DNA of 64,000 bases from Tetradesmus obliquus (Eukaryota > Chlorophyta > Chlorophyceae > Sphaeropleales > Scenedesmaceae), in contig CP126191.1 of assembly GCA_030272155.1 (NCBI GenBank), positions 2,316,501 to 2,380,500 of the forward strand, given 5' to 3'. The position numbers and the translations under genes were made by a program. Numbering within the stretch: the first letter of the stretch is position 1; each line of letters starts with the position of its first letter. Shown here in pieces: positions 4,068-51,508 of the stretch. The notes under the pieces are model-generated. The model saw only the letters and a list, made by a program, of their open reading frames with translations. It did not search any database and was not told the origin of the DNA.

Positions 4068-5701
4068 TCAAACCAAGTCGTGGTGCGGTGCAGCAGGTGC
4101 GGCAGGTGATGGCGGCACCTGCGAATGCTGTTGCTGTTGCCGCTGCTGCTGCACTGGTTGCGGGCTCTGAGCTGCCTGGTGTCTAGGCGGTGCGTAGGCT
4201 GTTGAGAAGGGATCCTCCACGCGCTGATAAGCGCTGCTGGCTGGTCCAGCAGGGCCTGATGGGTAGGGCGCAGGTGGTGCGGCATAGCTGGGCGATGCGT
4301 AAGTGCCCAACCCCTCGCCTGCGACACCACCGGCAGCAGCGTTGCAGCAGCAGGGGTCAAGGCAGCAGCCTGGCTGAGTGCAATGGACAGGCCACAGCGA
4401 CGGCACACGTAATCCCCTGCTGCTGAGCTTCTTGCGGCACATGTGCCTGGTGGCGCAACGGCAACTGGCTGAACATACTGCTGCTGCTGCTGTTGTACCC
4501 TGGCTCACCCGTAGCCACTGATCTGTGGAGTGACCAAGCAAACACGCCCCCTGCAACCTGCATGCAGCAGCAGCAGCAACAGCTCCATAGCATCAGAAGG
4601 ACAGCATGAGCCTGGTGACCAGATGAAGATCACATACAACAACTGTGTGCAAGGTTATTGGCATGGCACCGGGCACCCATGAAGCAGTCACACACGTTAC
4701 TTTACTACCACGCAGTACAACCAGCAGGCACAAACACGGGTTAAACTATGCATTTCATATGCATTCAGCCTCCCCACTGCGCCCTGCACACTGCCATTCG
4801 CCTCAGCAGGCCGTGCGTCATGCTGTCCCCAGCACAACACTGGCTTTCAACGACAAGCAGTGGCACTACCCATACAGACACACTTATCACGTCTCATCAG
4901 GCTATACGTATACACATTCCTGCAAGGCAGCGCCTCACGTCCTGCCCTGCTCACCTTTGCAGCCATCTCCAGCAGCTGCAGGAACACCAGCCAGCCCCTG
5001 CCATGCACAGTGTGTGGCACGCCAGCCAGCCGGATGATGTCCACCACAATGGAGGCAGGCACAAACACCATGAACTGCAACCACGCACGTGCCGGCAGCA
5101 GCAGCAGCAGCGGCAGTGGCAGACAGACTCGGTGACGCAGGGGCAAGCACTGCCTGAGACACACATGTGCACCAGGTGGAGTGTCATGCCTCACACTGTA
5201 CAGTGCACCCCAAGCTGCGCTGCAATCGCAAGCAGGGAGCGCTAGAGCTGCAATATTTTTGGTTGACATCAGTCTTCATGACGTGCACAAGTGCCAATTG
5301 CAGGCCGCAGCAGCAGCAGGCTGCGCACCAGCACCAGCAGCTCCTGTGAAGCGAGGTACACAGCCATGATGCCCAGCAGGGAGATGGTGCCGCTCACTTC
5401 GCTGGTCCAGATGCTGCAGCAGCAGCAGCAGCAGCAGGCACTGTTTTTGTAAGAAGCTGTCATCTAGGGTGAAGAGCTACCGCTGAGATGGTGGCAAGCA
5501 GCTGACCCACTTGCCTGCTGTGGCATGTACCGACTGCCATGCATCAACTGCACGTGTGCGTGGCTACAGTACTGCAATGTGCCAAGGCCTCTGAGGGAAT
5601 GCGTGTGGCCAGCAGGTGCAAGCTGCTGTACTGACCTGCAGATGAGTGCCAGTGCCAGAATGGTGATGGCTGACAGCGCCACGTAGGATGCCCTTGTGCC
5701 G
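4068..5701 (-). CDS. Small multi-pass membrane protein, possibly AGTRAP-like (5' end unresolved)
   Basis: Five - strand exons join with consistent phase: 5701-5636, 5413-5329, 5074-4955, 4557-4509 and 4318-4068 (stop). They encode hydrophobic segments around SYVALSAITILALALIC, TISLLGIMAVYLASQELLVL and FMVFVPASIVVDIIRLAG. A short loop (HGRGWLVFLQLLEMAAKVAG) and an Ala/Pro/Tyr/Gln-rich cytosolic-type tail follow, ending HHDLV. The order of helix, VDII-L, helix with Lys, GG and then a soluble tail resembles the angiotensin-receptor-associated-protein (AGTRAP) family, but the match is loose and is inference. The first exon with the start codon was not found; it must end in phase 2. The acceptor of the second exon follows a sense-strand CTG run. 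Confidence 0.55.
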
Positions 5702-6856: not shown

Positions 6857-8273
6857 GTTACTTTGGCCAGGGCAACGCCAATCGCACTGTGCAAGCGCAA
6901 GTAAGCTCAGGCAATCAGCTGAAACCTACCCGCCAATCTGTGTGCTGCTTGTGCAGGCGCTCAATGTGTTGGGCACACCCCTGCAGTGCTGCTGCAAGAG
7001 CCCAATAACAGGTGACACTGCAGCCTGACAGGTTGTGCTGTGCAACGCTGCACTGCATCAACGCGCATACTAGCAATCTGGAGGCAAAGCAGCAAGACCT
7101 AACCCATGCGCAAAATGGTGGTGGCTATGCAACCACAGCTAATGGAGTATCTACCTATATGCTTGGCACGTGCATGTTTGCTGCCTGGTGTGTGGACAAC
7201 TATCACCAGCATTGCCCACTCCTGATGCATCACCTGCAGGTTACTACAGGGATGGGTTTTGCAGGACCGGCGGAGGAGACTTTGGGGCACACGTGGTGTG
7301 CGCGCAGGTGCGTGTGTGCAATTTATATCTATATCTCCCATCATGTATGGTATCCTGCCGGCAGCTCTATATGCACACGCTGCGCTGCTGCTGTGCATAC
7401 TGCTGGCCTGTGGCAGCTGATGAACGCTTGCTGGCACTAGGCTGCTGCTAAGGTTCTGAGGATCCATAGACAGCTGGCTTCGACTTGACTTACAGCAGTA
7501 CCCCATAGGTTGCCCTTGCATTGCACACATGAGCATGCAACACAGTGCTGCACGGTTGCTGCATAAGTGCACTCTGCTCAGTGCATATCCTCAGTGCATA
7601 TGCCGCTGCTCCCCCTGCTGCTGAACCATTGCCGGCTGTGCACAGGTGACAGAGGAGTTCTTGTTGTACACGCGCGCAAAAGGCAACGACCTGAGCACGC
7701 CTGCGCCCCAATACGGCTTCCCAGGCCTCAAGCCGGGTGACAGGTGGTGCCTGTGCGCCAGCAGGTGCGCCGGCAGCAGCAGCAGCAGCAGCAAGCTCGC
7801 AGCAAGCTCGCAGCAGATGCGCAATGCTTCGGCCAGTTTCAAGCTGGGATTCTATACAGCCGTGCAGCGGCCAGGGCGCAAGCAGCAATGCATTGCTGCC
7901 GCTGCAGCTGCACCCTTGCTCTGGGGGCTTGTAGTGCGGAGCAAATGCGCAAACCAGCGGCAGGAGGAGTGCATGCGGTACATGCCACTCGCCCTGACAA
8001 ACTCCAACCCTGATGCCTGGGCTGCAACCCCTTCCTGTGCCACCATGATGCATTTGTGCTGTGATTTGGTCAAACTGACTCCTGTGCTTCCCTGCTACTC
8101 TGACGAAGTGTTTGTGTGCTGTGTGCATGCATGCATGCAGGTGGAAGGAGGCTGCCGATGCAGGCAAGGCGCCGCCGGTGGTGCTGTCAGGCTGCCACAT
8201 CAGGGCACTAGACTATGTAGACATGGCCCTGCTTAAAGCACACGCAGTGGCAGAAGAGGAGCAGCAGCAGTAG
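6857..8273 (+). CDS. DUF2237 family protein (start exon unresolved)
   Basis: Five exons join in phase: 6857-6900, 6957-7011, 7240-7307, 7646-7764 and 8141-8273 (stop TAG). The translation carries the DUF2237 signature in order: ALNVLGTPLQCCCKSPITG, YYRDGFCRTG, DFGAHVVCAQVTEEFL, GNDLSTPAPQYGFPGLKPGD, RWCLCASRWKEA, GKAPPVVLSGCHIRALDYV. The domain is common in plants, algae and bacteria; its Cys-rich pattern suggests metal or redox chemistry, but no biochemical function is established to my knowledge. The conserved domain starts at 6957. The exon at 6857-6900 is the likely upstream piece, and the initiator Met is not identified. The protein ends EEEQQQ. Confidence 0.85.
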
Positions 8274-19638: not shown

Positions 19639-21142
19639 GCACCTTGACGCTGGGGTCCTTGCTGACCACCCCCGTGCCACTGCAGGGCGCGTCCAGCAGC
19701 ACGCGGTCCACTGCGTTGCGCCCCACCACACTGGGCAGCTGCCGGCCGTCATAGTTGCACAGCACGGCGTTGGTCACGCCCAGGCGGGACAGGTTGGCGG
19801 AGATGGACTTGAGGCGGGAGGGGTTGAGCTCGTTGGCAAAGATGGTGCCTGGGGGTGCGAGGAGAAAAGAGAAAGAACAGGGTGTGCAGGGTTACATAGT
19901 GCATTCGTGGGGCCGGCTTGCATGCCACGCCAGGGCGGTACACAGCTGCATACACAGCTGCATGGCACGCCAGGGCGATACACAGCTGCATACACAGCTG
20001 CATGGCACGCCAGGGCGATACACAGCTGCATACACAGCTGCATGGCACGCCAGGGCGATACACAGCTGCATGCCACGCCAGGGCGATACACAGCTGCATG
20101 CCACGCCAGGGCGATACACAGCTGCATACACAGCTGAATGCCACGCCAGGGCGATACACAGCTGCATGCCACGCCAGGGCGATACACAGCTGCATACACA
20201 GCTGCATGGCACGCCAGGGCGATACACAGCTGCATGCCACGCCAGGGCGATACACAGCTGCATGCCACGCCAGGGCGGTACACAGCTGCAGCAGCTGCTT
20301 GTTACGGAGGGTGCTAGCAGGAAACGCCCGTAGGTGAGCTGATTTCACCTGGCTGCTCAACAGAGTGCCTGCTGCTGCGACACAAACAAGGTGCTAGAAT
20401 GAGCAGCAGTCCATGCAGCTACGCAGCATGCACTGCATGGTGCCATACCACTCCTACAGCCAGACCCACACAGCCCCAGCCCCAGCAGCAGCAGCAGCAG
20501 CAGTGCTCACCGCTGTTCTTCATGAGTGCCGCGATGTAGCTAGTCTTGCCGCCCGGTGCTGCCGCCACGTCCACCACAGTCTCGCCAGCCTGGGGGGCCA
20601 GCGCCATCACTGGCATGAAGCTGCTGGCACCCTGCAACCACAGACACAAAAGGCACGAACAAGCAATTGAGAGGCATGAACGAAGAGGCACATGCACGGC
20701 ATGAAGCTGCTGGCGCCCTGCAGCCAGATACACAAGAGCAATGAACAGGCAGTTTACGTCAGAACCGCAGGAATGCATAGGCAAGCGAGATGCATGAAGC
20801 ATGCGCCATCACAGGCATGAAGCTGCTGGCACCCTGCAGGCAGCAGCATGCAGCGGCAAATGTAAAGGGTTCAAATGTGAACAGGCATTGGCAGCGCATG
20901 AATGGCTAGGCATGTGAACAGCATGACGCTGTGTATGAGAACACAGAAACATGGACAGGCAGTTGAGCGGCAAGGACAAGCAGCTGACATGCAAGGGCAA
21001 CGTTACACTGGCGAGCAACATGGATGCAGCAACAACAACAGCAGAGCAGCAGCAGGGTTGCTTGCAGAATCATGCAGGGCGCAATAAGACGGCCCAGCTG
21101 AGGCACACTGCAGTGAATGCATTACTATTATTATTATTATTA

Positions 21143-22000: not shown

Positions 22001-24973
22001 ACACGCAACTCCTAACTCACCGGGCGTGGGCTCTCGCAGGCCTCGCACAGCTCCAGCAGCTCGCCAGGCGGGAACAGCGCAGCCAGCTGGCCCAGCAGGT
22101 AGCCGTTGTAGCCGTAATACACGCCCAGGTCGGCCTTGAGCTGCAAAAGTAACAAGTGGCAGGGTCGAACCATTAGCGGAAACATTAGCGAACACATGTG
22201 AGACCAGTATGCAGCGGCAGCTGTCGTAGCCATAACACACGCCCAGGTCGGCCTTAAGCTCCAGGCAGGGCACGCAGAACAATTGGGCATAGCAGTTTGA
22301 GCAGGTGTGAGGAAAGTGTGTAGTTGGAGTGGCACAGCGGCCGACGCCCCAGGTACGTTGTGAGCTGCGTGCGGTGGGCAGCAGCGGCGTGCGGTTGCAA
22401 GCTCAGGGTGTGGAGGGAAGCACAGCAGCAGCGGCACTTGCTGCATCAACCAGCCGAGTTGGCACTAGCAGCGACACCAACAGTGGCAGCTGTTGCGCGC
22501 GTGGCCCATGTGGCAACATCAATTTGCACAAGCAACAGTAATAGAAACATATGGTGAGTCCATAACCAACGTCACGCCTTACACACGAAGAATTTCCTGG
22601 GGTTGAACCTCAGAGTGACAGCCCGAGCTCAGCTGCTTGCAGCTTCCTATTTTACCAGGTGTCTGTGGCGGCGTATGCCGCATGAACACACCATGCAACC
22701 CCTCTATCTATCTATGGTCAGTGCCGTACCTGGTCCATGTAGTCGCTCCTGCTCCTGTTGCCTGCGCGCCTGCTGCTGAAGTCCTCAAGCACACCAACCA
22801 CCTGCACCAGACAGCAGCAGCAGCAGCAGCAGTCAATCATCAGGCACTGCCAGCTCACAGTCGCAGCAGCTTGCTTGCCTCCCAGCCCACACCGCCTCCA
22901 TGCTGCCATGCTGCCATGCTGCCATGCTGCCACACCTCCATGCTGCCATGCTGCCATGCTGCCACACCTCCATGCTGCCATGCTGCCATGCTGCCACACC
23001 TCCACCAAACACCAGCTGCTACCACATTTACCCCAGCCTACCCCAGCAACACCTTCATCGTTTGACCACGTTTGACCGCGTTTGACCGTGTTTGACCCAC
23101 CTGCTTCAGCCGCCGTTTGACCAGGTCCAGGTCAACCGCGCCATCTGGCCCTACAGCAGGCGCTCCCAGTTTGGCTCCCAGCCCCGTCTCGTCGTCTTCA
23201 TAGTCACCACCCATGCCCTCATCATCATCATCCGAACCGGCGCCGCGGATGTTTGTGGCCATGGCGCGCGTCTCAGCAGCGGCATCAGCCATCTGCTGCT
23301 TCCTGCAAGCAGCACAAAGCGACAGACAGCAGGCGGCGGAACACCGTAAGGAACAGAGTTGTGTGCGAAGTGAGTGTAGTGCTCTAAAGCAGGCCGCGCG
23401 GCACGCATCACAACTTCTAACTACAACTGTCCGTCATGGTTGTTGCTGCTGGCGCTCCCAGCCATGAAGCCTATCTGAGAAAGCAAGCAGCGATCAAGCC
23501 CTGCAGCCCTCCAGTGTTTGAGTTCACATCATAATCTTTCACCCGCTGCATGCATATGCCGCATGCAATGTTGCAGCAGCGCGCACCTAGCCTTCTCCAG
23601 CAGCTTGTTGTGCCACTCAATCGCCAAACGACCAAGCCTGAGCCCAAGCTAATGCTGTGCACTCCACGCATCGGCTGCCGAAACTACATCTACAGCTGCA
23701 CCTGGCCGCACCTGGCCTTCTCCAGCAGCTTGTTGTGCCGCTCAATCGCCAGCTGCTCATCCGAGTCATCCGACATGCCGCCCTCGTCGTCTGAATCATC
23801 ATCATCCCCTTCGCCCTCATCGTCTGACTCTCCCTCTCCTGCCTCGTCATCGCTGCCGAGGCTGCCGCTGCCAAACTCATCGTCGCTGCCGATGCCCAGG
23901 TCAGCATCAGAGCCGCCTTCCTCCCCATCGCTGTCAAACAGCGCCTGCTGCTGCTTGCCTGTGATGGAGACAGAAAGGTGATAATCAGGCAGGCGAGCGG
24001 GCAGGTAGGTATGTTGTGAGCAGCAGCAGCAGCAAGTGAATAGGCGCAAGGATCAGCGCACTGCTGCAGGCAGTCTGATGTAGGTGCAAGCGCACCAGCC
24101 GCTTGCACAGAGGAGGCAGCCTGCAATGCGCAAGCTCATATACTATATGCAACCCCTTGTCCCTGGCCATGCCATCCTGTGCAGAAGCAGTACTGTACGT
24201 GCATGCTTGTGCTTGCAACACCTGCTGCCGCCTCATCCCTGCAGTGCTGCTGCCTCACCTTTCGCCTGCTGCTTCTGCTTCTTGCTGGCTGCTGCTGCTG
24301 CTTTTGGCTCTTCCTCCTCAGCCTCATCATCGTCTGAGCCATCCATTGAGCCACTCATCTGCTGCTCATCATCGTCAGATGAGCCCATCTGCTGCTGCTC
24401 GTCGTCTGAGTCCAGCATTGCGTCCTCATCTTCCTCCTCATCTGACTCGCTGAGCTGCTGCTGCTTCTTGGCAGGCTTGAGCCAGCCTGCATTGTGGTCG
24501 CTGAAGCCAGCGGGGCGCTGCCGCTTGCCTGCAGCTGCTGCTGGCTTAGCCTGGAGATGCAAGTTGGCAGCAGGGCGGAGGGTCGGCAGGGCAAGCTCTG
24601 CTTACAGAACTGTTGTGCATTGCAGAATGCAACTGGGTGTGATGCAATGTATATGCGAACCTGTTTGACGCTTGGCAGCTGCATGCAGTACGCGGCTGAA
24701 CCATGACTAGACCATGACGGCAGCCTCAGCCCAGCAGTACTACTGAGCCGTCAATGCTTGTGCAGACTGCAGCAGATGCAAGGGAACAAACAAATAAATG
24801 AGCATGAAAGCAAGCACGCACCTTGGCAGTAGCTGCAGCTGCCGTCTGCTTGCCCTTGGTCACGGCAGCAGTAGCCCTACCCCTGCTGCAGCAATGAGCA
24901 GTGTACACGTGAGACCGTTGTAGCGACAGAAACAATCACTAAACAAACCTCACCAACAAGATACATGCGACAT
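17506..24973 (-). CDS. NOP2: NOP2/NSUN1 rRNA cytosine-C5 methyltransferase
   Basis: Thirteen exons join in phase: 24973-24954 (tentative first), 24882-24822, 24550-24259, 23958-23712, 23302-23101, 22801-22730, 22140-22021, 21592-21491, 21308-21231, 20631-20511, 19848-19643, 19186-18883 and 18461-17506, giving about 926 aa. A very acidic Ser/Asp/Glu N-terminus leads into the Nop2 core: [47 protein letters not shown] and motif [15 protein letters not shown]. Motif IV is [15 protein letters not shown] and motif VI is YSTCSM, with both family catalytic cysteines. The enzyme methylates a cytosine in large-subunit 25S/28S rRNA in the nucleolus and is needed for 60S assembly. The long tail has [12 protein letters not shown] repeats and acidic and Lys runs. 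The start exon is the least certain part. Three exon edges are duplicated into introns. Confidence 0.93.
19919..20290. repeat. Minisatellite in NOP2 intron, 40-bp and 27-bp units, 11 cores
   Basis: Eleven copies of the core CACGCCAGGGCG are separated by CACAGCTGCAT segments that occur once (27-bp unit) or twice (40-bp unit). The array lies in the intron between the exon encoding ALMKNSG and that encoding [13 protein letters not shown]. It is open in several frames on both strands, so the long ORFs through it are artefacts. Confidence 0.95.
20609..20843 (-). repeat. Triplicated acceptor edge of NOP2 exon (GASSFMP)
   Basis: The real acceptor, followed by GGTGCCAGCAGCTTCATG, is at 20631. Copies with an intact AG lie at 20717 and 20833 in the upstream intron (spacings 86 and 116 bp). 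The farthest copy keeps the most exon sequence, encoding [10 protein letters not shown]. Confidence 0.88.
21121..21203. repeat. (ATT)n microsatellite in NOP2 intron
   Basis: About 27 TTA/ATT units with one GTT interruption, in the intron before the exon encoding VGLVVYDSK. It is the only long AT-only triplet run in the window. Confidence 0.97.
21935..22003. repeat. CTG/CAG microsatellite in NOP2 intron
   Basis: Interrupted CTG run (with TCG units) on the + strand, so CAG on the NOP2 sense strand. It starts about 17 bp after the donor at 22020. It is one of the few intronic runs with sense-strand CAG rather than CTG. Confidence 0.9.
22105..22262 (-). repeat. Duplicated acceptor edge of NOP2 exon (LKADLGV)
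   Basis: The real exon starts at 22140. A second AG followed by an [16 protein letters not shown] sequence starts at 22258, 118 bp upstream in the sense direction. The copied exon edge is about 34 bp with few mismatches. Confidence 0.85.
22901..23003. repeat. Minisatellite in NOP2 intron (CCATGCTG core)
   Basis: Many copies of an 8-9 bp unit with core CATGCTGC, arranged in a higher-order pattern with CACACCTC spacers. It lies between the exons encoding KRRLKQ and VVGVLEDF. Confidence 0.93.
23587..23755 (-). repeat. Duplicated donor edge of NOP2 exon (NKLLEKAR)
   Basis: The real exon ends at 23712 with a GTGCGG donor. A copy of roughly 40 bases of exon end plus donor (GTGCGC) ends at 23587, 125 bp further into the intron. 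It encodes [14 protein letters not shown] with two or three differences from the exon. Confidence 0.88.
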
Positions 24974-27635: not shown

Positions 27636-27845
27636 GGCTAGGTGTAGGGTGATCAAGGCTAGGTGTAGGGTGATCAAGGCTAGGTGTAGGGTGATCAAGG
27701 CTAGGTGTAGGGTGATCAAGGCTAGGTGTAGGGTGATCAAGGCTAGGTGTAGGGTGATCAAGGCTAGGTGTAGGGTGATCAAGGCTAGGTGTAGGGTGAT
27801 CAAGGCTAGGTGTAGGGTGATCAAGGCTAGGTGTAGGGTGATCAA
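27636..27845. repeat. Perfect minisatellite: 21-bp unit, ten copies
   Basis: Ten identical 21-bp units beginning GGCTAGGTGTAGGG and ending TGATCAA. As 21 is divisible by three, both strands show repetitive open frames (ARCRVIK and LITLHLA), which are not taken as genes. Confidence 0.98.
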
Positions 27846-28043
27846 GGCGGCCGCTGAGCAATCAGCAGCACTATTAGAATGAAATGAACAATGCAGAACA
27901 AGCAAGCACATGCCGTGCAGTGCAGTTGCTGCTGTTGCGCAGAATAGGCTCGTCTGTGCGATGTGCACACATCAACTGAGCCTGCTGTGCAGCAATTGCT
28001 CAACCAGCGCAATAAAATGCAACTACAAATGCAATGAAATAGT

Positions 28044-28880: not shown

Positions 28881-30498
28881 GCAGCAGCAGCAGCAGCAGC
28901 AGAAGCATAAGGTAAGCTTCACACAACAAGCACAACAGGATGCCAAAGCATGGCACCTTGTGGCCAGTGTGTTCCTGCCAAACCACACACAGAAACAGCT
29001 GCAACTTGTTGCTTTGCAGAGCTTCTGCATCCTGGTGCTCCATGCATGTCAGCAACAGGCAGCCAGCACGCTGGCTCACCTCATCAACGCGGGCCAGCAC
29101 AGCTTGTTGGCCCTGCAGCAGCCACACCAGGTCGCCAACAGCCACCTCGCGCGTATGCTTGAGGCACTGCTGCTGTCGGGTAGCACCACAGGCAGTCGGT
29201 ACGTAGTGCATGGGAGACAGCGTCAGCACCTTGCTGCTGCCTGCAGCCCTGACAGGCGTGGCGCGGATGTTGAGGTAGGCCGCTGCTGTGCCTGCGTCCC
29301 TGTGTGGCATCAGGTAGACGTCATCAAACACCGCCGTGCCTGTTGACGCATCAACCGCCAGCACCTTGTCACCAACCACCAGCTGTGCAATGGGCTTTGG
29401 CCCGGCAGGCGTGATTACACGTGCCGCAGCAGGGAAGCATGCGCCATCGTTCGGCCCCGCAAACAGTGCAGTGTCTTCGCGGCCAAGCAGCGCATTGTTG
29501 ACCTTGCATGTTACAGAAAGTGCCCCAGCTGTGGCTGATGTGAGTCCCGGCTTATTGTCCTTGTCGAAATGCCACTGGATGCTTGGCGCGTCAAACACGG
29601 GAGCCTCTGTGCAGTTGAGAGGCAGGGCGGGGTCGCTTGAGGGCACACAGGAATGGCCCCGGGTGTAGTTGTAGCCAGTCCTGTCGTACAGCACGTATGT
29701 GCAGCGGAGCTTGTCTTTCAGGCCGGTGAGCTTTGCCGGAAGCTGGAACACAGCATTTGTGTTGTTCAGGTCTCCAACATTGCTGTACTTGGCCAAGTTG
29801 CGCGCCTGGGCTGGGCTGAAAGCAGTGCTGGCCTTTGTGAACTTGCAGGTGAAGGTGTTGGCTGTGACAGCAGACACTGTGGGGGACACGGCAATGATGG
29901 CGCCTGCAATATGCAGCAGCAACCACACAAACAAACAAGAAAATACTTTTGAGCGGCGTCTAGCGGTGTGTGAGATTCCAAACAGGTGGTGCGAGCCGCA
30001 ACTTTCCTTGCACATGCTGAACACCCAAGGCTGACTGCACAGCGTTGTGCGCATGAAGACGCCCTGCTGTATAAGGCATCGTATTGCGCGCTCACTGGCC
30101 GTTCTGCCGTTTGCAAGCTGGTGTGTAGACACAGCTTACAGTTGCTAGCGCTCACCAACATCATCAATCTTCGGCGGTTGGGCAGGTGTGCCAGGAGATG
30201 GGTCCTCAGCATACCGCTGCGGGCGGGTGATGATGCTTGTCAGGAAGCAGCCAAGGCCTGGCGTAAAGCCCACGGTGTAGAAATCCACGCTGTCATGCGC
30301 AGGGCTGGAACCAGTAGCCTGTGCAATGCCGACAGCACCGGCCACTCTGCCAAAGGCCTCTTTCTTGACCTCCTGCGCCACACAGCTGGCCACCTTGCTG
30401 TAGAAGCTGCGGCCCTGGCTGCCTTGCGCAGCAGCAGCAGCAGCAGCAGCGGCAGAGGCCGCCACGAGCGCGAGCAGCAGTGCACCGTAGGAGGGCAT
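28466..30498 (-). CDS. Secreted protein with C-terminal hedgehog/intein (Hint) domain
   Basis: Three exons join in phase: 30498-30156, 29903-29080 and 28804-28466, giving 501 aa. The start MPSYGALLLALVAASAAA looks like a signal peptide. The next roughly 250 residues have no recognised domain but include several Cys and two N-glycosylation sequons (NYT, NCT). The Hint domain begins near Cys270 (DGACFPAAARVITPAGPKPI), continues QLVVGDKVLAVD, has the block-B-like LTLSPMHYVP with His near 347, and ends with GMYSPWTLSGSIVVEGFAAS, the hedgehog-type last strands. Known Hint domains cleave themselves at the Gly/Ala-Cys bond through a thioester. No C-terminal Asn of inteins is seen, so a hedgehog-like mode is more likely. 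The intron before the last exon is filled by a CTG run. Confidence 0.85.
28815..28908. repeat. CAG/CTG microsatellite abutting an acceptor in the Hint gene
   Basis: About 30 CAG units on the + strand, with CCG and CGG interruptions. On the gene's sense strand they read CTG and end about 11 bp before the acceptor at 28804. Confidence 0.95.
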
Positions 30499-41037: not shown

Positions 41038-44000
41038 TCACCACCCATACTCGCCCACACCGCCACCACCCATATCCCCCCAGTCACCCCCACCCCCAGC
41101 CTCGCCCTGCTTCTTCCGCCCCCTGCCCCTGCGCCCCCTGCCGCGGCCCCTGCCACCCTCCCCAGCCACACCATGGATCTGGCCAGCCTTGCCACTGCCA
41201 GGCGGCCTGCCGCGCCGGCCCCTGCTCCGCCCAGTGCCAGGAGCAGCAGCAGCAGCAGCACCCCTACCGGGCCCAGGGGGCCGCCCCACCCCCCTGCGCT
41301 TGAAGCTCAACGCAGCAACACCCACACCAGCTGAGGCAGCAGCAGCAGCGCCACTAGCACCAGGCAAGCCGCTGCCTGCAGGGCTGGCAGTGCCAGGTGT
41401 TGAAACGCCAGCAAACCCTAAACCGCCGGCGGCTGGTGGCGGCGCTGAACCGCCAGGCTGGAAGCCAAACCCTAAGCCCTGCGGGGACGGCTGCTGCGGG
41501 CCTGCACTGGGAGTGGTGAGCCCGCTGCTGAACCCTGGGATGCGGCCTGCTGTAAACCCTAGGCCCTGCTGCTGCTGCGCTGCCCCGGGGCTGGGGTTTG
41601 TGATGCCATCATCATGGTTTAGCTCGCTCAGGCTCAGTGGATCTAAACCCTGCTTGGCTGCCTCATCTGCCAGGTCATCATCAAACAGCAGGGAGGCCAC
41701 ATCAGCAGCACCCAAAGCAGCAGGCGCATCATCCACAAACATAGCGCCGCCTGAACCTGCCGCTGATGCGCCCGGCCCACCCTCCTCGTCATCTAACTCG
41801 TCATATAACATGTCATCTGGGGCGTTGCCCTGGATCAGCATGTGCTCATCCTCCTCCGCCTCCTCCTCCTGCTCTGCTGCTGCGCCGCCCCCTGCCTCTG
41901 CTGCTGCACCTGCCTCACCACCAGCAGCAGCAGCAGCGCCCTTGTCTCCTGCCATGACCAGGCGCTGCACGTGCGTCTTTGCTGCTGCTGTGGATTGGAT
42001 GCGCTCCTCAATGGTGCCAGCTGTCACGAGGCGGTACACAGTCACCGGCCGTGTCTGGCCCAGCCTGTGGCAGCGGTCCATCGCCTGCAGCCAGCAACAG
42101 CAGCAGCATATCACACATCACAGTCTCGCGTCTCGAGCGTGTACGCTGCTGCAGATGCGGGAGTTATATAAGCCAGCCATACGCGGCACCAGGAGCACGC
42201 AACACACTCAGGCCCACCTACAACTTTCCAGTGCTGGCTGTAACTTTGAGCCCCACCCCCTGCCCCCAAACACCCGTCACCACCCACCTGCAGGTCCATG
42301 GTGGGGTTCCCATCACCGCCACAACACAATGCAACATGCGCCCAGCCGTCCCCACACGCCACGCCTCACCCCCATCCTACCTAACACCCCGCAAGCACAC
42401 CCTCTCCCTCGCACCTGCAGGTCCATGGTGGGGTTCACATGATCTTCACCACGCGACACGACACACATCCAGCCTTCCCGGGCCCCCCCACACCCCTATC
42501 CCACGCAACACTTTGCCCCCCTCCATCCATCCTCCAGGCCTCCCACCTGCAGGTCCATGGTGGGGTTCCAGTCGCTCTCGTAGAAGATGACAGTGTCAGC
42601 CGCCGTCAGGTTGATGCCCAGGCCGCCCGCCCTTGTGCTCAGCAAGAACACAAAGTGGCTGTCGCCGCCCTGCCATGCGTCCACCAGGTCGCGGCGCTCC
42701 GCGATGGGTGTGGAGCCGTCCAGGCGCAGCCAGCGGTGGCGGCGGTACGCAAACAGCTCCTCAAGCAGGTCCATCATGGTCGTCATCTACACGTACATGC
42801 AGCACAGGCAGCAGGGTTAAGGAAAGCATGTGCAAGATGGCAAGGGCAGATGGCAGCTCCTCCAGCAGGTCCATCATGGTCGTCATCTACACATGATCAT
42901 TGCAACAGGCGGCAGGGTTAGGGTTGAGGCAAGCATCGCCAACGTGGCAAGGGCAGGTGGCAGCTCCTCCAGCGGGTCCATCACGGTCGTCGTCGTGGGG
43001 GTGATGAGGGATGCACGTCAGGCAGCAGGCTGCATGAGGGTTAGCGGCAGCAGCAGCCAGCGGTGGCGGCGGTACGCAAACAGCTCCTCGAGCAGGTGCA
43101 TCATGGTCGTCATCTACACGTACATGCAAAGGGGAGGGGGGTAGATGTGCACAGGCAGTAAGAAAGGAGGGTTGATTGAGGCAGCAGCAAACAGACGCAA
43201 ACAGCTCCAGCAGGTCCACCATGGTCGTCATCTCCGGGTGTTCAAAGGACGTAGCATTGAATGAGAGTTGGAGGCAGCAGCAGGTGCACCAGTGGTCGGC
43301 ATTCGTGCACTTGGTGTGTGGTGCCGTACAGACAGGCAGCAGGCAGGTCGTGATCGGTTGAGGGTGAGGAGGTAACAGCAGGTGGACGCGGGTAGCATGC
43401 ATGTGACCATAAACCACGAGGGCACACATATCTCTGCAGCGCTGCACCTGGCAGAAGACCAGCACCCTGTGCCCCCCAGCCTTCAACAGCTCACACAGCA
43501 GTCGCAAAGGCGTCGCATATGCTAGCATTTGCCACCACACACGTACCAATACAATAATGCATCCAGTGGTTCCCCGCACCTGGCAGAAGACCAACACGCG
43601 GTCCCCCTCACCAACACGATCATAGCTACATAGGTACAGAGCTACAGAGCTACTGCATTTCCCGCACCTGGCAGAAGACCAGCACGCGGTGCCCCTCAGC
43701 CTTCAGCGTCATCAGCAGCGAGTCCAGCGCAGTCAGCTTGCCACTGTCACACAGCGCCTTGGCCAGCGCATACGGCTGACCGGGCGGCGCGCTGCCAAAC
43801 ACCTGCAGCAGCGGGCCGGCCAGCGGCTGCCGCGGCGGCTGCGGCAGCAGCGCGGGAGGCGGCGGCAGCGCGTGCCACAGCGGCGGCAGCGGGCTCTGCA
43901 CCACGCGCGGGAAAGAGGAGTATGCCTGCTGCTGCTGTAGCTGCGGGTCTGCTGCGGATTTGGCTGGCGACTCGCGCTGCTGTTGCGGCGGCTGTGGAGG

Positions 44001-46273
44001 CTGCCGTGGGGTTGTCAGCCCTGGTGCTGCTGCCAGCGCTGCACTGACAGGATCTGTAGCAGCAGCAGCTGCAGCAGCGGCAGCAGCAGGGCCTGGCGTC
44101 TGCTGCTGCTGCTGCTGCTGCACTGCCTGCTGCTCAAGCAGCAGCGGCGGCGGCGGCATGTCTCTGCAGTACCCAGGTAAGCCTGCCTGCTGCCTATCAA
44201 CGACAAAGCTCCAGCTCCTGCTGCTGCCAATACCAAAGCTGCTGACAGCACCAGCAGCAGCAACACCGGGTGAGCCGCCACCGCCGGCTCCTGCGCTGCT
44301 GGCAGCAGGTGCGATGCTGCCTGCCCGGCTACCCCACCGGCCCCTGCCCCTGCCTCTGCCCCTGCCGCGCCCGCGGCCCCTGCCTCTGCCGCGGAATGTA
44401 TTCGGCAGCGGCGGCAGCATACTGCTGCGCTTCTGCTGCTTCTGCCGCCGCTGCTGCTCCTCCGTTGCATCGTCTGAGTCATCTGCCCCGGACTCTGCCC
44501 CGCCCGCATCTTCTGCTGCGCTGCTGTCGCCGCCTGCTGCATCTGCAGCATCTGTGTTGGGCAGTAAGTCGCGCAAGCGGCGCGGCGGCTGCAGCGCTGC
44601 TGCTGCGAGCGCAGATACGCGCCAGCTGGCGGCAATAGATAGCAGAGGGGGTGCACCTGCTGGGAGGGTGGGCTGCATGGGGCGGCTGTTGATGCCCAGC
44701 AGCAGTGCGCGGGACCTGCAGGACGCAAAGGATGACACCGATACATGCAGATGGCACACAACGTTTGGTGTGAAAGCGCCAGAAGAAAGGCGTGTGCATT
44801 GGCATGTGAAGGATGCATTTGGTTTGTTGACATGCAATGGGTGATAGAGATACAGCCTTTGCAGTGGGTTTGTGGATGTTGAAGTAGGATGGTTTCAGCA
44901 GCAGGAGGCAGCACCCTGCAGCATCTCATAAAAACCGAGGTACAGGTCGCATCATAACCAGCAGCAGGGGCGGCTGTTGATGCCCAGCAGCACCGCCCGC
45001 GACCTGAAAGACACAAGATCAGCAAGGTGAGCGAGGTCGGCACATCCGGGACATGACCACAACAACATGTCTGACACAAGGCCAGCAGAAAGCTAAGGCG
45101 GAACAAGAGTGCGCGCTGGCGCGCAGTGACTGCACGACTGCAGAGGCAGCTGTAGCAGCGCAGTTGTCAAGGTGACATCCATCCAGGAAAGCTGCAACCA
45201 AACATAACACAACTCAGTTGGCAGGGGCTGCGACACACCACACACCAACGATATGTTTGGGCACAGGGCTCACCAAGGGGCTGCTGTCAGGGCCGCCTGC
45301 TGGGCCACCAGCCCCGCAGCGCTGCACACCAACGCCACGGGAGGGCTCAGCACAGGAGGGATCAGCGCACCCCACACGCTGCGCAGCAGCAGCGCCGCAT
45401 CCGCCAGCCGCCGCTTGGCACTGCACACCAGCGGCGGCAGCAGCTCCCCTAGCTCCTGCACATCTGCTGCTGCTGCTGCTGCTGGAGTGCCGCTGCTGCC
45501 GTCAGCAAGCAGCCGCTGCACCGCTGCAGCAGCAGGGCTGCCCTCTGGCTGATCTGCTGGCTCCAGCTTCTGCTGCTGCTGCTGGATTGTCTGCAGCAGC
45601 TGCCGATCCGCATCGCTCCACACAGCACGCTGCTGCCGCAGCGCCCGGCCTCTGCTGCTGCTGCATGCTGCGCTGCTGGCAGCAGCAACGTCGTCCACCA
45701 GCAGCAGCAGCCGCCGCAGCCGCAGCGACTTGCCGCTGCTGAGAGCAGCCTTGCTGGGCGGCAGCTGCAGCAGCTGCTGCTGCAGCTCGCTATGCTGCTG
45801 CTCAGCCACAACCAGCAACCGGCCCCCATGTGCATTGAATGACACTGCAGGAAGCGCTTTGCCTGCGCTCGACCCTTGCTGCCCTGCTGCTGCACCTGCC
45901 TCCTGCTTGACGGCTTGCTGGTGCCGCTGCTGCTGCCAGTGCAGCTGCCGCAGCTGCTGCACCTGCTGCTGCCACTGCGCCTCATCCATCCCGTACTCCT
46001 GCCAGTGCTGCTGCCAGGCTGCTGCTGCTGCTGCACCCCTCCTGCCTGCATAGGCAAGCTCCCAGGCCTGGAAAGGGTCTGCTGCTGCTACAGCCGCCAC
46101 CTGGCCAGGGCTTAGGCCGCTGAACACTGCGAAGCTCAACCCTGAAGAGAAGCAAGGGTCTGACCTCGGACCCAACACCAACAGCTTGCTGCTGCTGCTG
46201 CTGCAGCTGGGCTGGTCAGATGTACGGCCAGCTTCCTTGCCAGCTACCTTGTCTTGCGGCTGCTGGTGCTCAA

Positions 46274-46305
<32 letters not shown>

Positions 46306-49300
46306 AGTAGCTGCCGCACAAGGCTCGCAGTGAACAGCTGCAGCCGCTGCCGCAGCCACAGCTGCCGTGCCCCCTCCAAGTGCCCACCCAGCACTGCAGC
46401 CGCTTGGCCCACCATCCCCTCGTTATATAACAACCTGGGCAGCACCACGGCCAGGTGAGACCTGAACCCTGTGACCTGCACCCAGGGTATAACTGTCTGC
46501 TTGGGGGGCCGCCCGGGACCTGCTGACACTGGCGGGGCGTTGTCTGCTGGGTTGTTGGCTGTGGTGCTTGCTGCAAAGGTGAAGGGCCAGCGCTCTGCCT
46601 GGCCTTCCATCAGCTCCGGGTGGTTGCAGACCTGGCAGGTGGGATGGGGGAGAGGGCAAAAGCAGGCATGGGTGTTGAGAGGGTGAAGAGCAGCAGCAGG
46701 GGAAGCACGCACACATGATACTTGCACTCCATCAGCTCCAGGTGGTTGTAGATCTGGCGGGTGGGCAAGAGCAGGCAGGGGGTGTGAGAGGGTAGGGGGC
46801 AGAGGTGGGGGGAGCAAGCACGCACATAGTTTGCGCTCCAGGAGCGCTCGGGTGTTGCAAACCTAGCGTGAAGGCAAGAGCAGGCAGCGGGTGTGAAGGA
46901 GGGCGGGGGGCAGAGGCAGGGGAAGCAAGCGCACATAAAGTTTGCGCTCCAGCAGCGCTGGGTGGTTGCAGACCTGGCGGGAGCGCAACAGCAGGCAGGA
47001 GGTGGGCAGCAGAGGCTGGGTAAGCAAGCACGCATGAAGTTTTGCACTTCTGGCCTTCCATCAGCTCAAAGTGGTTGCAGACCTGGCGGGTGGGCAAGAG
47101 CAGGCAGGGGGCGAAAGGAGGGGAGGCAGCAGAGGCAGGGGACGCAAGCATATATTTGTACTCAGGTGCCACGTAGAGGCAGCTTGTTGCTGCCCTGTCA
47201 GCAAAGGGGCTGTTGCTGTCTACCCGCGCCACATCCTGCTGCTGCTGCTGCTGCCATCACTGCTGTCACTGCTACTGCTGCTGCCACGTCCTCACCTTGC
47301 GCATCTGCATGATCAGCCCCATCAGCCGGCTGCTGGCGGCCGCGCTGACCGCAGGCTTGCCGGGCCGCCCCGCTGCGCCTGCTGCTGAGCGTGCCCCCAT
47401 GGCCAGCAGGTCTTGCAGCGTGAGGTTCCTGCGCAGCGCAGCGTACAGCTGCGTCTGGCGGCGGCTGAGGCTGCAGCGCAGCGTGATCTGCGGGGCAGGA
47501 GGGCAAGCATAGAAGATGTCAGGGGCATGTGGCTGCAGGTGAGCAGCGCAGGAAGCACTACGTAGTGAAGTTTGTGCTGCACGGCTGTCCGGTTGCGATG
47601 CAGAACAGCGTGTATTGCAGCTTGCAAGGTGCGAGAGTCGGCTTGCACCCCACAGGTCGCATACAGCTGTGCATGGCGGCGGCTGAGGCTGCAGCGCAGC
47701 GTGATTCAATGTGGGTGGAGTGGGTGGGGGTGGGGCTGCAGTGTATGGGGCCGATGGTTGTGGGGGAGCGGGGGGCAGGCAGGAGGGCAAGCTACAGGAA
47801 GCATGAAGGGATGTGGCTGCTGTGAGAAGCACTGCAAGCAATGCAACGCGAAGCACGGAGCCGGCTGCTGCTGCTGTGTCTGCTCTGGCAGCGCGCAAGG
47901 CAACACATCACAGCACAGGGCGACGCAACAGTCCCGAACACCGTGTGCATACCACGGACAGCGCTGCCAAACACACTCGCACCTCTCACCTCGGTCTTGG
48001 GCACCATCTCGGCCACCACGTCCTTCTTCACGCGCCGCACCAAAATCCAGGCAGATGCTCACTTTTTGCACTGTGCATGTATGCTGCGCTACACATCTAA
48101 TGCCTCTCTTACCGCTGTCTTGGGCGCCATCTCGGCCACCACGTCCTTCACGCAGCACCCTAAATACACAGCAGCCGTACCCTTTGCAACATACACGAAG
48201 GCTGCCCTACACATTCAACACCTCTCACCTCGGTCTTGGGCACCATCTAGGCCACCACGTCCTTCACGCAGCACCCTAGATATACACAGTTGCCGACTCT
48301 CTGCATTGTGCACAGCCACATCATCTTTACGCGCCGTGCATGCCGCAATACACATCTGCAACCTCTCACCTCGGTCTTGGGCACCATCTCTGCGACCACG
48401 TCCTTCTTCACGCGCCGCAGCATGAAGGGCCCCAGCACGCCGTGCAGCCGCGCCAGCTGCTGCTTGTCAAGGCTCATCTGCGGCGCGCCGCTGCCGGTGC
48501 CGCCCGCGCCCGCGGCCGCGTTGTTGGAGCCCTGCAGACATGTGGCAGCACGCATGGCGGCGACGCAGAGGTTGTGAACGATGTCCGGTTTATGTGATGT
48601 GAATGTTTGGGGAATGTGATCAGAAAGTTACGTGCAGCATGCAGACGTTGAAGCTACACGGCCAATGCACAGGTGGCGAGCAAGCACCCGTACCAGGCAC
48701 CCCTCACAACAGTCCAGACATGAACTGCGCCAAGCCCCACACCCTGGCCCGCAGCTCACGCTGGCACCACTACTCCTTGAACTGACTTTCAACAACATTT
48801 GGAACAACGCCTCACCCTTGAGAACCACTCGTTGAAGGCGTCCCTGCTGTCGAAGAGCTGCGGCATGATGAAGTGCAGCAGCGCCCACAGCTCCTGCAGG
48901 TTGTTCTGGATGGGCGTGCCGCTCAGCAGCAGCCGGTTGCGGCAGCCAAACGTGAGCAGCGCACGCCAGCGCGCAGAGCCCGACGACTTGATGGCCTGAG
49001 GGCAGCGTGATAGCAGCGTGATGGCAGCAGCAAGCAGCATGGTGTGAGGCACAACAGCGTTGTGGAAGCCAAAGGTCAGCAGCTATTGATATGAGGCAGC
49101 GCGCGGACCGTGACGACTTGATGGCCTGGGGGGCAGCGTGGTGTGGCAGCAGCAAGCACAGGGGTTTGAGGCACAGCAAGCAGCATGGTGTGCAGTGAAG
49201 CAGCAAGTAGTCCGATGACAGCAAGCAGTGTGACGGCAGCACTCTAGGAGAAACCTCTGCTCATCAACACCCGACCACATGTTGCACACAATGTGCTTGG

Positions 49301-51508
49301 ACACGATAACTCCGCCATATCCCCAGACGTTCATGCAGCCTCTACACAAACGCATGCACAGTGACGGGGTGATTAACTGTGCCACCATCCTGCGCCACCC
49401 TGCACAAGTGCCAGGCCACCGCCGCCCACCATACCATGTGCCAACACTGTCTCTTGTCAACCAATAAATGCGCATCTAAACATGTGGTGCAGTCTCCTGT
49501 GCCAGCCCACCGCCAGCCCACCTGTGCCTCGTCCAGGATCATGAACTGCCACTTGACCTTGCGCAGCACCGCCTCATCAGCCACAGCAATCTGGTAGCTT
49601 GTCAGTGCCACGTGGAAGGGCGCGGCACGCCCGTACAGCCGGGAGGGGGCCAGCAGCCGCCGCAGCGTCTTGCGGTCCGCCAGGTTGCCCCAGTACGGCA
49701 GCACCTGGCGTTTGCAGCAGCAGCAGCACCAGTAGCAGCAGCATTGACAGGCCCTATCAGGTACATTGGTTTACAGCTATAAGATAGAATGCATCATCGC
49801 GGCGAAGCGTGATGCAGGTTCACTGCACAGGCCAACGGCATACTTCACGGTGATATTCACGCGCTGGCTGCCATGTCACACCCAACTTCCCACCTTGAAC
49901 CCTGGTGTGAAGCTGCTGAGCTCCTTGTCCCAGTTGTGCAGCGTGGAGGCGGGTGCCACCACCAGGAAGGGACCCCACACGCCACGCGCCTCAGCCAGGT
50001 GAGCTAGGAACGCCAGCGCCTGCAGCGGCAGCGGGGATTGCGGGTAGGGGTGAGGGTTAATGTGCAGGGGCGGCATGCAGCAACAGCATGTGCAAAATGG
50101 GATCACCAAGCCATCCTGTCGCCTCCGTTTTTGCTGAATGCTGTTGCTATTTCCGCTCAATGCCTTTCCTGTCAACCATGTAAGGAGTGCAGTGAACCTC
50201 TACGTGCGAACACGTTCCAACGTGTGAAGCCACCACGGCGACTGGCCTGCTGGCGTCATCACACGGCCCCACGCCGAAGCTACAAGCTACCCCCCTGCTG
50301 TCCAGGCCATTACATTTTGATGCCCTGCAACCTCAACAACCCCAAGCCCAAGATACCTCGCGCAACCAAGAGAAAATATCTTGCCCACCTGCACCGTCTT
50401 GCCCAGGCCCATCTCATCAGCCAGGATGCCGTTCAGCCCCTGGTCGTACAGGCTGGACAGCCACTGCACGCCCTTCAGCTGGTAGCCCTTCAGGCTGCCC
50501 CTGAACCCTGACGGCTGAACCACACCACTGGCCTCAGGCATTGTGGTAGGCTGAGTCAGATCCACCTGCTGCTGCTGCTGCTGCTGCTGATCTGGCGGCA
50601 CACCCATGCCCATCTGCTGCTGCTGCTGGTCTTGCAAGATCTGGCTCGGCGCCGCGCCCACGGCAGCAGCGCCGACCGCATACTCCTGGTCAAAGGCAGC
50701 AGCAGCGCCCATCGCACTGGCAGCAGCAGCCTGCGCCTTGGCTGCTGCTGCTGCTGCCAGCCGGGCAGCCTCCGCCTCGTCATCTGCCAGATCAGCCTGC
50801 TTGATCCTGACACCTAAGCCCTGCAGGCTGAACCCTGCGCCACCAGCATCGCCACCAACCCGTGGCGCAGGGCTGCTGCCAAAACCACCAGCAGGGTTTA
50901 CACCCAATGGGCTGAACCCTGCAGGGCCCGGGGAGGACCGTGCAGCACCCCCAAACCCTGGCGGCTGCTTCACTGGGGTACTGCCAGGTGTACCGCCAGC
51001 AGCAGCAGCAGTAGCCGCATCCCCAGTGCCCAGCTTGTTCTTCATAAAGTGGCTGTACAGCTCAGTCTGAGTCAGCAGGAAGTTCAGCCTCTGCTGCTGC
51101 CGGCGTGCCTCCCGCTCTTCTTCTGCCTTGCGCGCAGCCTCCGCTGCTGCGCGTGCTGCCGCGCGCGACGCACCCACCACCTCCCTACCTGCGGCGCGCC
51201 ACCAGGCCTGGCCGTCACGCAGCAGCCGGCGCAGCGAGGCGCCAGCGCCACGCCTGCACCGGTGTGCACAACGTGAAATGTGCATGGACAGCAGCAGCAA
51301 AAGGCGGGCAAGTGGAGCGGGCATTGTTGTGAGGAGTTGTGAGGAGCGGGCGCGGCGTGACGCGGCAGCAAATGGGTGCAGAATATAACAGCAGCCAGTC
51401 ACGTGCAGCCCTTACACATGATGATGAAGCGCAGGAAACATGGACACGTGCACGTCAGGCCGTGCTGTTGCCAGCAGGGCAGGCCACCAAGCATGCGCCC
51501 AGCGCTAG

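Follow-up and report, generated by a model that had tools for sequence, protein, structure and literature searches.

Why should the edges of exons be found again, often several times over, inside the introns next to them? The question is raised by a stretch of 64,000 nucleotides (hereafter the window) at positions 2,316,501–2,380,500 of its contig in the genome of the alga Tetradesmus obliquus (104.7 Mb, 17 contigs). It carries a gene for the INO80 ATPase, in which an initial annotation had described segments spanning splice junctions that are repeated in the flanking introns. Our analysis confirmed that the repeated exon edges are real and that they are not confined to INO80. The copies are apparently unused in splicing, yet their coding sense and their splice sites appear to be far better kept than the surrounding intron DNA.

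Arrays in the INO80 gene

The last 10 exons of the INO80 gene were modelled at 41038–51213 on the minus strand, using the open frame, alignments with PDB chains and annotated proteins. From high to low coordinates they are 51213–50389 (with a provisional start), 50019–49894, 49704–49522, 48995–48816, 48531–48370, 47487–47296, 46631–45274, 44715–43668, 42786–42547 and 42084–41038. Joined, they give a single frame that is open over 1786 codons, with a terminal stop only. INO80 chains in the PDB align across the joins VPKTE/ITLRC, QMRK/VCNHPEL, FCQ/MTTMM and MDLQ/AMDRC, where six of the eight arrays described below are located; one of the search queries contained one residue too many at VPKTE/ITLRC. 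A T. obliquus protein, OEZ86_010939 (P0001), has 100% identity with the INO80 query along all 391 residues that were compared. This protein and the INO80 protein of a second T. obliquus assembly (OEZ85; P0002) match the model at the four PDB-aligned joins and at the AIKSSG acceptor, all of which use the outermost sites. At the acceptor at 44715, P0002 agrees with the model and P0001 does not.

Each side of a junction was represented by a 42-nt probe (36 nt of exon and 6 nt of intron), which was searched for in the adjoining intron. Copies were found at 8 of the 18 internal junction sides of INO80, 17 copies in all, so that the eight arrays initially annotated in this gene stand. All are on the minus strand. 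The acceptor of the exon starting at 48995 (AIKSSG) has one copy, starting at about 49125 (array 48967–49130), and the donor of the exon ending at 48370 (VPKTE) has three, with junctions at about 48228, 48112 and 47989 (47983–48422). At the other end of the same intron, the acceptor of the exon starting at 47487 (ITLRC) has one copy at about 47705, which lacks the AG (47441–47707). The acceptor of the exon starting at 46631 (VCNHPEL) is repeated at about 47082, 46973 and 46753, and a weaker copy at about 46862 is below the threshold of the probe (46599–47094). A single copy at about 45003 belongs to the acceptor of the exon starting at 44715 (44679–45016). The donor of the exon ending at 43668 (LVFCQ) has two copies, with junctions at about 43579 and 43447 (43444–43708); the acceptor of the exon starting at 42786 has four, at about 43231, 43113, 42993 and 42886 (42726–43233); and the donor of the exon ending at 42547 (NPTMDLQ) has two, with junctions at about 42414 and 42287 (42280–42569). 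Tandem Repeats Finder (TRF) reports arrays with a period of 107–116 bp at three of these places. The spacings between copies are 88–141 bp, with additional values of 218 bp, 220 bp (the weaker copy lies in between) and 288 bp, which bears out the spacings first proposed except for one of 44 bp; none of the 127 spacings in the conserved genes described below is shorter than 80 bp.

Frequency and anatomy of exon-edge copies

Gene models for other loci were obtained with a small hidden Markov model (HMM) gene finder, which was seeded on INO80 and trained on its own predictions over 264 kb (20 random stretches and the window). One of the random stretches (L011) consists entirely of N, which was read as A during the training, and it was excluded from every count. 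The gene finder returned all 18 internal INO80 junctions exactly, missed the stop and called two of the INO80 array copies as exons. Over the 264-kb set, its acceptors are strongly CTGCAG-like with a weak pyrimidine tract, and its donors are GTGAG-like. A conserved set of 11 genes consisted of INO80 and ten CCT/cpn60 loci; 10 of 11 CCT/cpn60 places were taken regardless of repeats, and short and redundant exons were dropped. INO80, CCT1, CCT4, CCT5 and CCT8 are backed by alignments with homologues, and the other six loci by the gene finder and Pfam matches. No T. obliquus protein named CCT1 was among the at least 120 entries of a protein search for it, probably owing to a length limit. A random set consisted of the junction sides predicted in 19 random 10-kb loci.

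In the conserved set, 69 of 192 junction sides carry copies, 127 copies in total, with one to seven per affected side. Six of the 192 sides depart from GT/GC or AG, one of which has a copy, and 68 of 186 sides are affected when these are removed; in the five homologue-aligned genes, the count is 48 of 88. The copies occur in 10 of the 11 genes, on as many contigs. Unrelated edges used as probes gave no match in 960 trials, exon-middle probes gave 5 of 90 (Fisher p = 7e-9) and intron-interior probes gave 32 of 258 (p = 6e-9). In the random loci, 32 of 314 predicted sides carry copies, spread over 15 of the 19 loci, against 0 of 297 for unrelated edges and 1 of 99 for exon-middle probes (p = 0.002). 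The idea that such repeats are equally common at other positions is clearly wrong for the 11 conserved genes; in the random loci, exon edges exceed exon middles, but their excess over intron interiors (22 of 351) is not significant (p = 0.09). Because the rate in the random loci is much lower, the high rate of the conserved genes must not be extended to the whole genome. Coverage by repeats, taken over the random loci and the remainder of the window, peaks at the edges of predicted exons, with 0.15 for the terminal 20 nt and about 0.09–0.10 for most of the exon farther in.

Several individual arrays were noted during the survey. Profile HMM searches of the genome matched the same stretch of a domain repeatedly, about 140–280 bp apart, in a kinesin gene and in CCT genes. 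The kinesin locus (L028; G000:C2:7430001-7433200), which was left uncounted in the conserved set, has an acceptor array of 1.1 kb at about 666–1765 of the locus on the minus strand. This array is open in one frame and encodes seven near-identical peptides (like VIVSLANKESHIPYRNSKLTWL) with CTG-coded leucine runs between them. In L020, a locus chosen blind to its content, a predicted exon edge is accompanied by four copies at 4604–5220 on the minus strand; three of the five are identical over 42 bp, and their flanks differ. In CCT1 (L037), the intron that follows gene-strand position 7534, where an exon ends, contains a 33-bp tandem repeat of several units beside an exon-edge copy. In CCT4 (L036), the exon that ends at gene-strand position 4838 has a five-copy donor array.

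The median spacing of the copies is 127 bp (interquartile range 116–147), and their exon-derived part measures about 47 nt (5–95%: 18–85), reaching the full exon in only 1 of 127 copies. An intron is longer by 134 bp for each copy that it carries (Theil-Sen slope 136, 118–156; 96 introns), and introns without copies have a median length of 295 bp in the conserved set. In all 18 introns that contain both kinds, the donor copies lie 5' of the acceptor copies, as had been proposed for the ends of affected introns, and in none do the two interleave. Moreover, no partner splice site above background was found at the inner ends of the copies: AG precedes 18 of 68 donor-type copies (background 0.28), and GT follows 19 of 59 acceptor-type copies (background 0.33). 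Both observations uphold the view that units were copied in place at one junction and not as exon-intron-exon blocks.

The missing partner site also makes the copies unlike cassette exons. It is very improbable that they are alternative cassette exons, or that the gene models are wrong. Some copies were indeed called as exons by the gene finder, but the copied peptides repeat one and the same stretch of the homologues, and the INO80 model is in frame. An assembly artefact is hardly credible, since the copies differ from one another by substitutions, are separated by unlike sequence and occur in so many conserved genes and random loci.

The repeats of the random loci and the window have similar unit lengths wherever they lie, with medians of 128 bp for those covering exon and intron (n = 63), 120 bp for those in introns only (n = 18) and 107 bp for intergenic ones (n = 10); a further eight are in exons only, and five are of other kinds. 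This similarity points to a general process that makes duplications of about 120 bp. In a number of arrays, whole units that cross the junction are about 70–89% similar.

Divergence of the two halves and state of the copies

The two halves of a unit differ greatly in their likeness. When a copy is compared with its functional edge, the identity is 0.899 for the exon half and 0.643 over positions 7–42 of the intron. Between copies, the values are 0.871 and 0.629, and unrelated introns give 0.573. The likeness of the flanks is independent of that of the exon parts: in the 15 functional-copy pairs with exon parts at least 97% alike, the flanks are 0.68 identical, and 13% of them reach 0.8. We simulated a boundary-spanning duplication under the same detection rule. 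The simulated intron blocks were 0.87, 0.85 and 0.79 identical, against 0.65, 0.70 and 0.63 in the observed nearest copies, and simulation and observation match only if the intron half changes about six times faster. Low complexity was rejected as the cause of this fast divergence because no trend with entropy was seen. A further possible explanation of the clocks is exchange with other strains or haplotypes.

In a reverse search, 13 of 172 intron-edge probes gave copies, compared with 69 of 192 exon edges. Ten of these 13 include the exon edge and are alike at about 0.90 in the exon and about 0.84 in the intron (row average). Both halves of these units, which are young whole-unit duplicates, are thus similarly diverged, near the prediction for neutral duplication. 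In the arrays as a whole, the drop in likeness coincides with the junction. From +1 to +9, donor copies are barely above unrelated donors, +4 being the main exception (0.56 vs 0.34), and the identity of donor copies is already reduced at positions −2 and −1. Simple neutral tandem duplication is not enough for the observed pattern.

The initial annotation had stated that most copies keep GT or AG, and this holds: GT is kept in 52 of 68 donor copies and AG in 54 of 59 acceptor copies. With probes made of exon sequence only, GT is present in 47 of 61 copies and AG in 46 of 51. The retained sites are at full predicted strength. The median donor score is 6.78 for copies keeping GT, 7.00 for functional donors and 2.31 for random intronic GT, and the median acceptor score is 8.07 for copies keeping AG, 8.80 for functional acceptors and 1.80 for random intronic AG.

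The coding sense is also retained. Differences between functional edges and copies fall at codon positions 1, 2 and 3 in a ratio of 102/78/315, and comprise 304 synonymous, 187 missense and 4 stop changes, against a trinucleotide-matched expectation of 162, 327 and 5. If the copy were free to change and the exon constrained, we would expect about 236 synonymous to 255 missense changes, and the observed missense number is therefore lower than a free copy predicts. The dN/dS ratio by the method of Nei and Gojobori is 0.195 (0.149–0.254) between functional edges and copies and 0.290 (0.206–0.401) between copies. The spacings modulo 3 are about even (44/48/35), and in-frame read-through of the units was rejected for this reason.

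Origin of the arrays and other features of the window

The account that we favour begins with short tandem duplications of about 100–150 bp, which may arise often in the T. obliquus genome. Duplications lying wholly within an exon would be removed by selection. Those spanning a junction would be tolerated, because the outermost copy, to which alone the full exon is joined, continues to be chosen in splicing, and the duplicate would join the intron and add about one unit of length. Repeated events would produce donor arrays at the 5' end of an intron and acceptor arrays at its 3' end. The intron half of a unit would then drift freely, while the exon half and the core splice site may be kept alike by conversion, contraction and expansion with the functional edge. 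A broken copy would be a standing hazard to the gene, so that this later exchange would impose indirect selection on copies that are not used and keep them coding- and splice-competent. As a whole, this account of duplications of about 125 bp followed by continuing homogenisation is probably, though far from certainly, correct. Duplication across the junction, tolerance through outermost-site splicing and growth of introns by whole units are well supported by the anatomy of the copies, the gene models and the intron lengths. In particular, the functional edge is the outermost one in the frame-open INO80 model and in the homologue alignments of INO80, CCT1, CCT4, CCT5 and CCT8. The suggestion of the initial annotation that copies are born by boundary-spanning tandem duplication in a fast-turnover genome remains the best account of this step, in view of the 134 bp per copy and the young whole-unit duplicates.

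Exchange between copies was looked for in the eight arrays that have enough of them. All four combinations occur in 6 of 14 informative site pairs, a small sample. The expected share of such incompatible pairs is 0.014 on a tree without exchange and 0.075 under an approximate null with hot two-state sites (P = 3e-4). Among the accounts considered, exchange alone seems to fit the coding sense, the strength of the sites, the free flanks, the one-sidedness of the copies and the tolerated frameshifts.

Several observations weigh against this reading. The signal of exchange comes from those 14 site pairs, all of which are in five of the eight arrays. In acceptor copies, some additional similarity extends to about 10 nt, so that the break is not perfectly sharp there. 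Changes private to a copy are less biased (84 synonymous, 92 nonsynonymous and 3 stop, against an expected 54, 121 and 4), and part of the synonymous excess goes back to the history of the functional exon itself. Frameshifts are present in 18 of 127 copies, the lengths of 19 of 21 indels are not divisible by 3, and 4 of 127 copies contain a stop, roughly the number to be expected from the missense changes; from these, the constraint on the copies must be weak or past. The frequency of arrays is uneven among the conserved genes, from 0 of 18 sides (L029) to 11 of 14 (L037; p = 1.5e-6), which the account leaves unexplained. The non-significant excess over intron interiors in the random loci counts in the same direction.

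A bolder proposal, which we put forward tentatively, is one of second-order selection. Recombination would swap unused edges, of which the introns hold large numbers, into the functional position so often that degenerate copies are a genetic load. The unused edges would thereby stay competent for coding and splicing, so that DNA without a function evolves in the manner of an exon, and introns would expand by repeatedly shedding exon edges.

A plain neutral history is unlikely. On this explanation, random boundary-spanning duplications decay independently, and the edges look special only through the conserved functional copy. It accounts for the unit length, the growth of introns, the young duplicates with halves diverged alike, the stops and frameshifts and the lack of a significant excess over intron interiors in the random loci. 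However, the exon halves of copies are nearly as close to one another as to the functional edge, with intron halves near the baseline; the simulation requires a much faster intron half, for which low complexity is no explanation; the splice sites of the copies are at full strength; and intron edges give far fewer copies than exon edges. Pure neutrality fits the births of the copies, but not the pattern of their survival.

We consider it rather improbable that selection maintains the copies because they serve in their own right as decoys, back-ups or regulated splice sites. The retention of GT and AG with exon-only probes, the strength equal to that of functional sites and the synonymous bias would be expected of such sites. 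In contrast, the use of a copy would insert units without a bias for multiples of 3, the copies have no partner site, and they carry frameshifts and stops. A decoy needs no coding sense, and the arrays vary widely among the CCT/cpn60 genes. The even spacings modulo 3, the frameshifts and the stops also leave regulated splice-site choice, one of the possibilities raised initially, unsupported so far.

Slightly more doubtful again is a modular process, in which template switching at the splice motif (TGCAG or AGGTGAG) would transfer only the exon edge to a comparable motif elsewhere in the intron. The fading of likeness at the junction, with donor intron positions barely above unrelated donors and positions −2 and −1 already lower, is in keeping with it, as are edges in random loci that are almost identical and have differing flanks. 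However, introns grow by the whole spacing and not by the roughly 47 nt of copied exon, and the arrays with whole-unit similarity do not agree with it.

The arrays resemble several known systems in part. In tandem exon duplication, which gives rise to mutually exclusive exons, extra exon sequence with splice signals lies next to the parent exon. The T. obliquus copies likewise place exon sequence and a splice signal beside the parent exon, but they are partial and have one splice site, and therefore cannot be included as ordinary exons; an acceptor and a donor of its own for each copy were not found above background. Introner elements are a case in which many introns of one genome have been changed by one process, as they seem to have been here, but related sequence dispersed across genes was not seen, and the copies are specific to their gene, as the unrelated-edge controls indicate. 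In concerted evolution by gene conversion, unused pseudogene copies are kept similar to a constrained functional sequence. Exchange would similarly keep the unused copies near the functional sequence in T. obliquus, although the exchanging exon edges would belong to a single gene and lie about 125 bp from each other. Like intronic minisatellites, the arrays are made up of intronic units of about 125 bp that adjoin head to tail, as the TRF periods and spacings show, and some are whole-unit arrays. Unlike them, the unit is anchored on the splice junction, mostly with only the exon half and the core site alike and the other half near the baseline (0.87 vs 0.63); likeness over the whole unit was found in a minority of young units. 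A report on the potato RdRp gene describes a tandem duplication across an intron-exon boundary that made a new intron (PMC4974935). As described there, the duplication crosses the boundary and the copy inherits splice signals, as in our case. However, the potato case is one event with a new intron, whereas in T. obliquus existing introns lengthen, the copies stay inside them, and one to seven events per side have occurred in many genes. A literature search, which covered few subscription journals, turned up no report of arrays like these.

The arrays bear on splicing, intron evolution and annotation. About one third of the junction sides in the conserved genes have extra strong predicted splice sites, with matching exon sequence, some hundred bases away. 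The protein models need the outermost site to be chosen, and the arrays are therefore a natural test bed for site choice by the spliceosome; under exon definition, copies with a splice site on one side only should be passed over. They also offer a measurable route of intron growth. The introns of T. obliquus average 462 bp and are the longest among four Sphaeropleales, the other three having 230–302 bp, according to a comparison (PMC5966456). The unequal conservation of the unit halves provides a way to gauge how much exchange takes place locally and how selection acts on DNA that has apparently no use of its own. Finally, edge copies can mislead gene finders, as happened here with the HMM gene finder.

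Elsewhere in the window, the probe search found three arrays in a NOP2-like gene on the minus strand, a name that comes from the initial annotation and the predicted peptides. They are an acceptor array at 20601–20838 (exon 20511–20631), an acceptor array at 22093–22263 (exon 22047–22140) and a donor array at 23582–23751 (exon 23712–23958). The three arrays claimed for NOP2 were thus all recovered. These were the only matches among 96 predicted edges outside INO80, and the single arrays claimed for an SGNH gene and a kinase gene were not recovered; accordingly, 11 of the 13 arrays originally listed for the window were found. The window also contains a 21-bp tandem repeat of ten perfect copies at 27636–27848. 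At 29126–29876 on the minus strand, a predicted exon encodes a peptide with CFPAAARVITPAGPKPIAQLVVGDKVLAVDAS, which may represent a Hint module of the Hedgehog/intein type.

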